Positions 14,924 to 27,233 of a stretch of 64,000 bases of DNA are shown in pieces. The DNA is from Venenivibrio stagnispumantis. Lineage in GTDB: Bacteria; Aquificota; Aquificia; Aquificales; Hydrogenothermaceae. Numbering within the stretch: the stretch's first letter is position 1; each line of letters starts with the position of its first letter. The position numbers and the translations under genes are program-made. The stretch spans positions 1 to 64,000 of the forward strand of contig NZ_FXTX01000004.1 of assembly GCF_900182795.1 (NCBI RefSeq). The letters run 5' to 3'. Under the pieces are notes generated by a model, which saw only the letters and a list, made by a program, of their open reading frames with translations, was not told where the DNA came from and did no database searches.

Positions 14924-15590
14924 TATAATTATTTTGCTATCTGGTGGAATGGATAGTGCAACATTATTATGGCTTGCAAAAAAAGAGTTTAAAAAAATAT
15001 ACACAATATCATTTGATTATGGACAAAAGCATAATATAGAGCTTAAATTTGCAAAAGAGTTATCTGAGTTAGCCAAAGTAGAAAAACATTTTATAGTAGA
15101 AATTCCACATCTTAAAAATTTAGAAGGGAATGCATTAACAGATAAAAATTTAGAAATTCCGTCAGAAAATTATCCGGATGACCCACCTATAACCACAGTG
15201 CCAATGAGAAATCTAACTTTTTTATCAATAGCAGCAGCATTTGCAGATACATATGAGATTGAGAATATAGGTATAGGCATTCATTCTGTTGATTCGCCAT
15301 ATCCAGATTGTAGGGCAGAGTTTGCATCTGCTGTTGAAGCTGCTATTAATGCATCATCTATAATGGTTGCAAAAAAGAAAAACAGAATCAGGGTATATAC
15401 ACCATTCTTAGGTAAAACAAAAACTGATATACTAAAATTAGGCTTAGAACTTGGAGTGCCTTATGAAAAAACATATTCTTGCTACAAAGGAACAATACCA
15501 CCTTGTGGTGAATGTGCTACCTGCTTACAAAGAAAAGAAGCTTTTGAATCGGTTGGATTAAAAGATTATATAGAGGTAAATGATGAGTAA
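14916..15590 (+). CDS. queC: 7-cyano-7-deazaguanine synthase
   Basis: 224 residues. Converts carboxydeazaguanine to preQ0 in queuosine synthesis. The PP-loop [12 protein letters not shown] is at the N-terminus and the zinc site is [17 protein letters not shown] near the C-terminus. I use the ATG at 14916, which gives the usual family start; the upstream in-frame GTG at 14904 lies inside prfB and its ribosome site. It is followed by topA with an overlap of a few bases. Confidence 0.95.
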
Positions 15591-17637
15591 AAATAAAATA
15601 GTTATCGTAGAATCACCAAAAAAAGCAAAAGAGATACAAAAATTTCTCGGAAAAGATTTTATAGTAGAAGCTACCATAGGACATTTTAAAGATTTACCGG
15701 AAGATGAGCTTGCAGTAGATTTAGAAAGTTTTGAACCAAAATTTGTTATAAAATCTAAAAAACATAAAGATATATTATCAAAAATAAAAAAAATTGCAGA
15801 AAATTCTGAGGTTATAATAGCAACAGACCCTGATAGAGAAGGATATGCAATAGGATATTTTATGTTTGAAGAGTTAAAAAAGAAAACAAAAGATATAAAA
15901 AGAGCAGAATTTCACGAAATAACAAAAGAACATATTCAAGAAAATATAAAAAATGCACTGCCCTTTGAAAAAACAAATTTTGGATTATTTAATGCTTTTC
16001 TTGGCAGACGGGTAGGAGATAGAATTGTTGGATATATTATATCACCAGTAGCATCAAGAGAAATAGGCGGAAGATACAGCGTTGGAAGAGTCCAATCTCC
16101 AGCAGTTAGATTAATAATAGAAAGAGAAAGAGAAATCCAATCATTTATACCAAAGGCTTACTATCTTATAAATACAACTTTAACAAAATCCAACATAGAT
16201 TTTAATGCTTTTTATACAGAAAATAAAAAGAGTATAGAAAGTTCTAAAATAGAAGATAAAGAAGTTGCAGAAAAGATATATAATCAGATAAAAGAAGAAA
16301 AATTTGCAATCGTAGAAAAAATAGAAAAAAAAGAGATAAAAAAATCACCAAAAGCACCATTTACAACATCTACATTGCAACAAACCGCAAACTCACAGCT
16401 TGGATTTTCGCCAGAAAAAACTATGCAACTTGCACAGGATTTATTTGAAGCAGGACTTATCACATACCATAGAACAGATAGCACAAGAATATCAGAAAAA
16501 GCTATCATAGGAATAAGAGAGTTAATAAAACAGTTATTTTCTGAAAATTATCTTCCAAAAAACCCAAGACAGTATAAATCTAAAAATACACAGGCAGATG
16601 CCCATGAAGCAATAAGAATAACAAATTTCGTAGATATAAAAGAGCAGGAAAATCTTATAAAAGAAAAAGGATTAACAAATGACCATTTTAAATTATTAAA
16701 ACTTATATATGAAAGAACCTTAGCTTGCCAGATGGCAGATGCAATATTTGATAGAACTAATGTATGGCTAAAAATAGGAGATTATACATTTGGAACTTCC
16801 GGCTCAATTCTAAGATTTAGTGGATATAAAGCAATATATGAAGATGAAGAAAAAGAAGAAACAATAAAACTTCCATCTTTGGAAAAAGGAGAAAAGGTAG
16901 AGATCAAAGATATTAAAATTGAAGAAAAATGGACTAAACCACCGGCAAGATACACAGAAGGAAGCCTGATAAAAAAACTTGAAGAGCTTGGAATAGGAAG
17001 ACCTTCAACTTATGCAACAATTATTAAAACGATAAAAGATAGAGGATATGTAATAAAGGAAGGAAATTCATTAAAACCAACAGAAAATGCTTTTCATCTT
17101 ATAGATTATCTTAATCAAAAATATCATTGGGTTATAGATTATGAATTCACAAAAAAGATGGAAGATTTTCTTGATGAAGTAGAAGAAAATAAGAAAAATT
17201 GGAAGGATTTTGTTAAACAGCTATATGAAAAATCAAAACCAACCAAAATAAATGGAGTTTCCAAAAAGATGCTTGATTATGCGTTAGATTTGGCAAAAAA
17301 ACATAATATAGATATAACTGATATATTAGAGCATCCAGAAAAAATTAAAGAGTTTATAAACCAATATGCAGATAATAAACCTTCTGAAAAACAGATAGCA
17401 TATGCTAAATCTCTTGCAGAAAAAACCGGATTAAAACTTGATGATAAAATATTACAGGACAAAAAAGCAATAAAAAAATGGATAGATAAAGCAAAAAAGG
17501 AAGCTATGAAAAATTATAATTTATCAGAAAAACAAAAAAATATATTGATAAAAGCAGGAAAAGAAGATTTGCTCCAAAATCCGGAAAAAGCATTAAAATG
17601 GTTAAACAGTTATTTGAAAAAGTATAAGAAAAAATGA
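15583..17637 (+). CDS. topA: DNA topoisomerase I (type IA) without zinc fingers
   Basis: 684 residues. Toprim domain (VIVESPKKAKEI, ATDPDREG), then the type IA core with the active tyrosine in LITYHRTDSTRIS near residue 305. The C-terminus has no CxxC zinc fingers. It has two or three related helical repeats of about 45 residues that begin SKKMLDYALDLAKKHNI, SEKQIAYAKSLAEKTGL and SEKQKNILIKAG. These probably replace the zinc fingers in DNA binding. The second ATG (15583) has better spacing to GAGG than the first (15580). The start overlaps queC. Confidence 0.95.
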   Translation: MSKNKIVIVESPKKAKEIQKFLGKDFIVEATIGHFKDLPEDELAVDLESFEPKFVIKSKKHKDILSKIKKIAENSEVIIATDPDREGYAIGYFMFEELKKKTKDIKRAEFHEITKEHIQENIKNALPFEKTNFGLFNAFLGRRVGDRIVGYIISPVASREIGGRYSVGRVQSPAVRLIIEREREIQSFIPKAYYLINTTLTKSNIDFNAFYTENKKSIESSKIEDKEVAEKIYNQIKEEKFAIVEKIEKKEIKKSPKAPFTTSTLQQTANSQLGFSPEKTMQLAQDLFEAGLITYHRTDSTRISEKAIIGIRELIKQLFSENYLPKNPRQYKSKNTQADAHEAIRITNFVDIKEQENLIKEKGLTNDHFKLLKLIYERTLACQMADAIFDRTNVWLKIGDYTFGTSGSILRFSGYKAIYEDEEKEETIKLPSLEKGEKVEIKDIKIEEKWTKPPARYTEGSLIKKLEELGIGRPSTYATIIKTIKDRGYVIKEGNSLKPTENAFHLIDYLNQKYHWVIDYEFTKKMEDFLDEVEENKKNWKDFVKQLYEKSKPTKINGVSKKMLDYALDLAKKHNIDITDILEHPEKIKEFINQYADNKPSEKQIAYAKSLAEKTGLKLDDKILQDKKAIKKWIDKAKKEAMKNYNLSEKQKNILIKAGKEDLLQNPEKALKWLNSYLKKYKKK

Positions 17638-17643
17638 TAAATT

Positions 17644-17673
17644 AAAAAGGGGTGGGTCTTTGGCGACCCACCC
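17644..17673 (-). terminator. Intrinsic terminator on the minus strand
   Basis: Read on the minus strand, a 9-bp GC-rich stem GGGTGGGTC / GACCCACCC (17665-17673 and 17650-17658) with a 6-base loop is followed by C and TTTTT (17648-17644). On the plus strand no T-run follows the hairpin, so it is unlikely to be the topA terminator. No minus-strand gene lies upstream, which implies a short minus-strand transcript. Confidence 0.75.
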
Positions 17674-17740
17674 AGATATGGAGGGGGAGGGAGGGGGGAT
17701 GCCTAAATTGAGAAACAAACTAAATTAAGTTATAACTAAT
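17644..17740 (-). ncRNA. Candidate small RNA with anti-Shine-Dalgarno C-rich segment
   Basis: Minus-strand transcript inferred from the intrinsic terminator at its 3' end. Immediately 5' of the terminator stem is a pyrimidine tract complementary to 17680-17698 (runs of 6, 3, 5 and 2 C separated by single U), containing several CCUCC copies. CCUCC is the complement of the ribosome-binding GGAGG. Part of the tract (CCCUCCC) could instead pair with the terminator arm GGGUGGG. The 5' end is not known; TATATT- and TATAAC-like boxes occur upstream on the minus strand around 17725-17745. The plus-strand neighbours are topA and gatC. Confidence 0.5.
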
Positions 17741-17815
17741 ATAAGATATAAGTATTAGAAATAAAATGATTTTCATCATAAATTTGATATAATAATAAAA
17801 AAGGAGAGTAAAAGG

Positions 17816-18112
17816 ATGAAAGAGATTAAAAAGGAAGATGTAATAGCTATTGCTAAGCTTGCAAAATTAAGTTTAAAACAGGAAGAGATAGAGCTTTTTT
17901 CAAAACAGTTTGCAGATATAGTTTCTTTTATTGAGAAATTAAATGAAGTTGATACAGGGGATATAAAACCATTTTATGAATTAACTACCACAGAAAGCTT
18001 TATGAGGGAAGATATTCCACATGTATCCTTATCAAATGAAGAAGCATTGAAAAATGCACCGGATAAAGAAGGAGGATTTTTCAAAGTTCCAAGGATTGTA
18101 GGAGAAAGTTAA
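17816..18112 (+). CDS. gatC: Asp/Glu-tRNA amidotransferase subunit C
   Basis: 98 residues. Small subunit of GatCAB, which amidates Glu-tRNA(Gln) and Asp-tRNA(Asn). The family pattern is clear: VIAIAKLAKLSLKQEEIELF, FIEKLNEVDT, then REDIPH and the C-terminal GGFFKVPRIV. gatA and gatB are not in the window. A TATAAT box (17788-17793) and AAGGAG precede it. Confidence 0.94.
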   Translation: MKEIKKEDVIAIAKLAKLSLKQEEIELFSKQFADIVSFIEKLNEVDTGDIKPFYELTTTESFMREDIPHVSLSNEEALKNAPDKEGGFFKVPRIVGES

Positions 18113-26935: not shown

Positions 26936-27233
26936 GTTTGTAGCGTGCCTATGAGGAGTTGAAACTTTGATTTTTGATTTCTTCAAAATTTTTATCATAG
27001 CTTGTTTGTAGCGTGCCTATTAGGAGTTGAAACTTTTGTATATGTAAGTGTTTTCTTCTTGCGGAATTTGTTTGTAGCGTGCCTATTAGGAGTTGAAACT
27101 ATAGAGTCTTTACAGCAGTTAAGGCTATTTGTAAAGTTTGTAGCGTGCCTATTAGGAGTTGAAACTATCTTTCTTCAATGCTTAATCCACAAGGGATTTT
27201 TTGGTTTGTAGCGTGCCTATGAGGATTGGTTTT
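26936..27233 (+). CRISPR. Short CRISPR array, 4 intact repeats and 1 decayed repeat
   Basis: 30-base repeats at 26936-26965, 27004-27033, 27070-27099, 27136-27165 and a terminal one at 27204-27233 whose last eight bases have changed. The repeat starts GTTTGTAGCG and ends GTTGAAAC. The first copy has ATGAGGAG where the middle three have ATTAGGAG. The four spacers are 38, 36, 36 and 38 bases. The GTTGAAAC end suggests a type I or III system. No cas gene lies in the window. The long stretch from 26836 to 27354 holds the leader, this array and an AT-rich argG promoter region only. Confidence 0.97.

Follow-up and report, generated by a model that had tools for sequence, protein, structure and literature searches.

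The window analysed here is a 64,000-nucleotide stretch of the Venenivibrio stagnispumantis genome. The gap between its topA and gatC genes (named as in a preliminary description of this DNA) holds a predicted small RNA (sRNA) gene on the minus strand, with the following features.

15580–17637, plus strand: topA, from its open reading frame (ORF) and synteny; convergent neighbour
17644–17731, minus strand: predicted sRNA of ~88 nt, its 5' end placed from the -10 element
17644–17649, minus strand: terminator tail, C plus U5
17650–17673, minus strand: intrinsic terminator hairpin, 9 bp with a loop of 6, from covariation
17678–17702, minus strand: near-invariant segment GCATCCCCC(C)TCCCTCCCCCTCCAT, from alignments
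17680–17698, minus strand: C-rich tract CCCCCCTCCCTCCCCCTCC, unpaired, with three CCUCC; putative pairing region
17738–17743, minus strand: -10 hexamer TATATT, of the same type (TAnnnT) at 30 of 30 loci
17766–17779, minus strand: palindrome ATGATGAAAATCAT (TGA-N6-TCA), putative site of a CRP/FNR-family protein, centred near -41.5
17816–18112, plus strand: gatC, from its ORF and synteny; divergent neighbour at most but not all loci

Read 5' to 3', the RNA would begin with a leader, continue with the C-rich stretch GCAUCCCCC(C)UCCCUCCCCCUCCAU, which is unpaired, and end in the 9-bp terminator and C plus U5; three-frame translation of 17644–17731 gave no ORF. The preliminary description had placed the element at 17644–17740, which is too short, the promoter and activator site that it missed extending to 17779. 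On the minus strand (17673–17650) the hairpin reads GGGTGGGTC-GCCAAA-GACCCACCC, forming nine pairs followed by C and TTTTT, and this end falls just beyond the topA stop codon. Read on the plus strand, the same hairpin is followed by AGATATGG, without a T run. Since terminator-like sites are by themselves not rare (two in 2 kb versus 1.1 expected in a hairpin scan), the case for the element rests on conservation. The window contains the exact tract pattern once, versus 0.00 expected from 100 dinucleotide shuffles. The several CCUCC copies noticed earlier in this tract number three, and in minimum-energy folds essentially the whole tract is free in 24 of 24 loci, with at most three Cs paired (in the window copy).

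Two further observations concern the window itself. At 17650–17698 the plus strand has a very high G content (GGAGGGGGAGGGAGGGGGG), and a G-quadruplex or a purine-rich DNA triplex could form there; the minus strand at 26936–27165 carries CRISPR repeats of the Rfam type CRISPR-DR2.

Conservation and covariation in Hydrogenothermaceae

A BLAST comparison of the region with 61 genomes detected the element throughout the window's family, Hydrogenothermaceae (best relatives at E 2.7e-10 and 9.3e-10), and scanning the GTDB genomes for the exact pattern gave 16 contigs, labelled Sulfurihydrogenibium, Persephonella, Hydrogenothermaceae or Aquificota MAGs. Because MAFFT put the stems out of register when both clades were aligned, the model was derived from one clade and the other clade was aligned to it. 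The covariance model, built from 11 loci with the window's genus left out, matched 31 of the 41 Hydrogenothermaceae genomes searched at 45–86 bits. A covariance search had been proposed as a check in the preliminary description, and the window copy was indeed recovered by this model from other loci, at 48.1 bits (E 3e-11). Family genomes without the element are mostly incomplete, and the model search found none in all three genomes of one genus (G009, G016, G022). Other families gave weak matches only. Weak matches of the model, L082, L083, L086 and L090 for example, have a high GC content or are coding and are probably due to chance.

Across 24 loci, GCATCCCCC-TCCCT-CCCCC-TCCAT is almost invariant, the window copy of the segment having one extra C. 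The terminator stem, by contrast, differs between groups. The window has GGGTGGGTC, Sulfurihydrogenibium-like genomes have GGCTGGGA or GGTCGGGA and Persephonella-like genomes have GCGGGTC or GCGGGTTG; in every locus C and a T run come after the stem. In an alignment that was fitted to the structure, the hairpins being also plain in the unaligned sequences, 147 of 147 stem cells are paired and 4 of 7 pairs have changed on both sides. Such two-sided changes occupy 27 cells compared with 7.5 ± 2.5 after shuffling (0 of 500 shuffles as high), and sliding the partner by one column leaves about 58% paired. The earlier proposal of a minus-strand sRNA with its own terminator is thus borne out by the one-sided T run, the family-wide conservation and the stem covariation.

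Hairpin and tract had also been expected to be conserved between topA and gatC. They usually lie there in the 31 genomes, but elsewhere in some: topA is on the sRNA 3' side in nearly all loci, gatC was not found adjoining the sRNA in L016, L019 and L022, and L026/L027 yielded neither topA nor gatC. Judging by these gene orders, the predicted sRNA gene is independent of its neighbours. An own promoter, no ORF, an intrinsic terminator and conservation independent of neighbours, all seen here, are the general marks of a trans-acting intergenic sRNA.

The intergenic gap is short and its plus strand G-rich with GGA repeats, as would be expected if the minus strand held no gene and the locus combined an ordinary terminator with a low-complexity G/C tract, or contained a plus-strand element such as a G-quadruplex, a gatC leader or a GGA-rich CsrA decoy. 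We regard these possibilities, even jointly, as very improbable: the minus-strand T run is present in every locus and the -10 element and palindrome occur at a fixed distance on that strand, whereas the plus strand of the window has no -10 at that distance and some loci lack gatC.

A predicted CRP/FNR-type promoter and its regulon

Upstream of the tract, every locus contains ATGAT-N4-ATCAT or a near form of this palindrome, which is the core of CRP/FNR-family sites; in L023 both half-sites are altered together (ATGAC...GTCAT). Among 30 non-redundant loci, the distance from the palindrome to TAnnnT is 22 nt in 28 and 21 nt in two, although the letters of the spacer have diverged. The start site was placed from the -10 element; if the hexamer occupies -12 to -7, 21–22 nt past the palindrome, the palindrome centre falls near -41.5, where class II sites lie. 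Unlike the promoters of the sibling RNAs described below, that of the sRNA has no TTGACA -35 box, either in the window or at the 30 of 30 loci. TGA-N6-TCA near -41.5 with a -10 and no -35 element is the arrangement of a class II CRP/FNR promoter, and most FNR-activated promoters of Escherichia coli have their site at ~-41.5 (-42.5 in fnrS; PMC3688515). Activation of the predicted sRNA promoter by a CRP/FNR-family protein in class II mode is therefore a well-supported reading of the motif and its geometry.

A search with one Pfam model, HTH_Crp_2, identified one protein in the genome, of 227 aa with a cNMP-binding and a Crp HTH domain, whose nearest solved relatives are CRP/FNR-family proteins, DNR among them. 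One ortholog is present in 35 of 37 Hydrogenothermaceae genomes searched, and the recognition helix TVETAIR is identical in all 17 family members examined for it. An E-x-x-x-R recognition helix reads TGA half-sites, and a conserved CRP/FNR protein with such a helix is thus encoded. As read from its sequence, the protein lacks the N-terminal Cys cluster of FNR, which carries an Fe-S cluster. On the strength of the motif, the geometry and its being the sole such protein found, it is most likely the activator of the sRNA promoter. The genome also encodes Fur, a PerR-like protein and two matches to Hfq. As a separate observation, L105 and L106 represent two Hfq matches in one small genome, the second frame being reported with one internal TAA.

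The pattern ATGATNNNNATCAT occurs nine times in the V. stagnispumantis genome compared with two for a reversed control. Sites with a -10 at 21–22 nt lie in front of the genes for desulfoferrodoxin (superoxide reductase) and, in the divergent direction, for Fe/Mn SOD, and also in front of a peroxiredoxin gene, OsmC and a rhodanese gene. In seven other genomes, TGATNNNNATCA-N22,23-TANNNT gave 82 matches versus 13 for the reversed pattern. Among the genes downstream are those for peroxiredoxin, thiol peroxidase, superoxide reductase and three hemerythrins; for IscA-like, NifU/IscU and Nfu proteins and NUBPL/Mrp-type iron-transfer NTPases; and for a ferredoxin, a NapA-like molybdoenzyme and ferredoxin-thioredoxin reductase. 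The thiol peroxidase and NapA subtypes are presumptive, judged from the sequences. The sRNA is apparently switched on together with genes for oxygen damage and Fe-S clusters, as suggested by these shared sites. In two genera (L173, L193), class II CRP/FNR-type sites also stand in front of a CO_dh (PF02552) gene.

The palindrome is AT-rich and resembles a Fur box, both Fur and PerR-like proteins are encoded, and peroxiredoxin and superoxide reductase among the site-bearing genes would suit PerR. The sRNA gene could then be real and its palindrome a Fur or PerR box, making the RNA iron-repressed or peroxide-derepressed like RyhB, FsrA and IsrR. A Fur box, however, would be a 7-1-7 palindrome over the promoter, and the site has the even symmetry TGAT-N4-ATCA (TGA-N6-TCA) instead of this odd form. 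Its fixed position at about -41.5 with no -35 box, in 30 of 30 loci, is typical of an activator, and the predicted regulon holds NapA-like, IscU, IscA, Nfu and hemerythrin genes, with no iron-uptake genes seen among the palindrome sites examined. Because of the symmetry, the -41.5 geometry and the co-regulated genes, the Fur-box reading was dropped, and we consider Fur or PerR control improbable.

Predicted pairing of the C-rich tract and candidate targets

The exposed C-rich region is able to pair with Shine-Dalgarno (SD) sites, as in known C-rich anti-SD sRNAs. Pairing energies of the tract were -7.26 kcal/mol for 61 translation starts versus -3.0 kcal/mol for coding interiors (p 7e-15). The order of its letters, however, is no better suited to generic SDs than random, 96 of 300 random orders being as good. 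The SD preference of the tract comes from its composition, and no optimisation of its order for generic SDs was found. Of the anti-SD role originally suggested, the preference for translation starts is supported, and action on SD sites is putative. Since the order is no better than random, the invariance of the tract needs specific targets or a protein.

The second of these options would mean that the RNA is real but that its C-rich tract binds or titrates an RNA-binding protein, with no antisense pairing. The near letter-for-letter conservation of 24 nt exceeds what SD pairing needs, the tract order is not optimised for SDs, and sibling RNAs have a 15-nt core, C5UC3UC5, in common, all of which would agree with protein binding. 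On the other hand, single-stranded C-rich regions are a known means of finding SDs in AT-rich genomes (PMC9410917), the tract prefers translation starts, and acs starts are G-rich in several genera. We consider protein binding without antisense pairing unlikely, though less so than the other alternatives.

For the antisense reading, mRNA targets were sought by pattern, namely GGAGGG ahead of an ATG start in this genome. Acetyl-CoA synthetase (acs) starts have GGAGGG in 12 of 30 cases and GAGGGG in two more, compared with GGAGGG in 0 of 61 window genes and 0 of 41 regulon genes; it is absent from acs in the three genomes of the sRNA-less genus (G009, G016, G022). The acs lead is partly circular, because acs was picked for its GGAGGG in this genome, and the genomes are also related, so that acs as the best candidate target is suggestive only. 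A search for complements of the whole core (up to 3 mismatches) returned mainly sRNA loci and other G-runs and no clear target; the reversed pattern is of no use as a control for this search, being identical to the forward one.

The preliminary description had also raised the possibility of a regulated terminator, in which the tract pairs with a terminator arm and so switches read-through. In the window, CCC.CCC can indeed pair with GGGUGGG (-11.4 kcal/mol as a duplex). However, the GGGUGGG arm is confined to the window's genus, others having GGCUGGGA, GGUCGGGA or GCGGGU, and the window hairpin folds at -19.0 kcal/mol alone versus about -10 to -11 kcal/mol for the alternative, with the tract essentially unpaired in every fold. 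Only the antisense of topA lies downstream. Both the comparison and the folding thus speak against such a switch, which we hold to be the least probable of the alternatives considered.

Sibling and look-alike C-rich RNAs

A second C-rich RNA with the 15-nt core C5UC3UC5, a TTGACA promoter and its own terminator is present elsewhere in most Hydrogenothermaceae genomes (L074–L081, L145–L147, L149–L151 and L159, with tract and terminator mid-locus). A possible copy in the V. stagnispumantis genome lies at L087:612–663, possibly on contig C36. Several of these siblings have repeats like GTTATGAAC/GTTATTAAC upstream, which may be operator sites. In the window's own genome, L088:641–704 could represent a third C-rich RNA (CTACCTACCCTACCTCCTCCTCCAT before a strong terminator).

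Look-alikes with other terminators were found in one genus of a second family (L084, L085, L255 and L256) and in five genomes of a fourth family (L245, L247, L248, L250 and L254). Those of the second family have CTCCCTCCCTCCCCCTCCC before a GCACCGC terminator, and in L256 ATGATAAATATCAT stands immediately upstream of TTGACA. Those of the fourth family comprise a C-rich RNA CTATCCCCCTCCCTCCTCCCC, TTGACA and a conserved AACTATTATTAATA adjoining the -10; L254 has a Fur-box-like segment, TGATAACTATTATTA, twice.

The sRNA might be the founding member of a phylum-wide Aquificota set of C-rich sRNAs, forming with the siblings and look-alikes a thermophilic network of redox and translation control, a proposal that we make tentatively and at somewhat less than even odds. 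If true, most Hydrogenothermaceae would have a CRP/FNR-activated RNA together with a TTGACA sibling, and two neighbouring families would have look-alikes with promoters of their own.

Discussion

The comparative evidence indicates that the sRNA gene is real and extends through the family; its kind (C-rich, trans-acting, redox-controlled) is known, and as a family it is new. No Rfam family reached its gathering score in the region, the matches being at chance level only (E up to 10); RoxS/RsaE, FsrA, FnrS and RyhB gave no Rfam match as sequence families, although possibly not all of them have Rfam models. We found no published description of this RNA, and RNAs of its type seem not to have been reported from the phylum Aquificota. 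Nor did we find any report of a trans-acting regulatory sRNA from Hydrogenothermaceae for which a regulon is likely. The novel ncRNA candidates of Lechner et al. 2014 belong to the same order, Aquificales, but come from Aquifex aeolicus; topA, gatC, C-rich and CCUCC are absent from the main text of that paper (PMC4227106).

Among known systems, RoxS of Bacillus and Staphylococcus (RsaE in staphylococci), a redox/NO-controlled C-rich sRNA, resembles the predicted RNA in redox-controlled transcription and single-stranded C-rich regions, and its B. subtilis target acsA parallels acs, the best candidate target here (PMC8216469). The two are unrelated in sequence: RoxS is controlled by ResD/SrrA and Rex instead of a CRP/FNR protein and has separate C-rich regions, whereas the Aquificota sRNA has one tract of 18–24 nt directly before the terminator. 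FnrS of E. coli likewise has a class II CRP/FNR-family site (-42.5 versus about -41.5) and belongs to a redox regulon (PMC3688515, PMC8139620). It too lacks any sequence relation, and FnrS represses oxidative-stress genes, which here appear to be co-activated. The FNR protein has an Fe-S cluster, unlike the present protein without N-terminal cysteines. C-rich anti-SD regions in AT-rich genomes are also used by FsrA (B. subtilis) and IsrR (S. aureus) (PMC9410917). Both are Fur-repressed and iron-sparing, whereas the site of the Aquificota sRNA is not Fur-like in symmetry or position. The sRNAs CcsR1–4 of Rhodobacter sphaeroides carry CCUCCUCCC motifs. Searching the literature for CCUCCUCCC in Rhodobacter brought up no papers. 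CcsR1–4 are also stress-related, but are processed from a 3' UTR, depend on alternative sigma factors and belong to unrelated bacteria (PMC8307010).

Our preferred interpretation, to which we assign a probability of about 0.7, is that the locus is an autonomous, non-coding gene for a trans-acting, redox-controlled antisense sRNA under a CRP/FNR-family activator. The sequence supports the early steps of such a mechanism: a dimeric activator would bind ATGAT-N4-ATCAT, centred about 41.5 bp before the start, and recruit RNA polymerase to a -10-only promoter, as it would at antioxidant and Fe-S cluster genes, and a 65–90-nt RNA would stop at its own intrinsic terminator with the 24-nt C-rich segment left single-stranded. 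We infer that the RNA builds up under the redox signal sensed by the activator, probably with Hfq, and that its CCUCC/CCCCC blocks may then block translation of selected mRNAs by pairing with their G-rich Shine-Dalgarno regions. The sRNA thus probably silences other genes by covering their ribosome-binding sites, of which those named here are candidates.

With a regulator and a signal class (redox/Fe-S) that are both predicted, a candidate target, and a defined 24-nt segment for pairing that is conserved in more than 30 genomes, the proposal can be tested directly. A C-rich anti-SD strategy of AT-rich Firmicutes would reappear, unrelated in sequence, in chemolithotrophs of hot springs and vents. 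There, short RNA duplexes must hold at high temperature, a need that may be met by long, unbroken G-C pairing.
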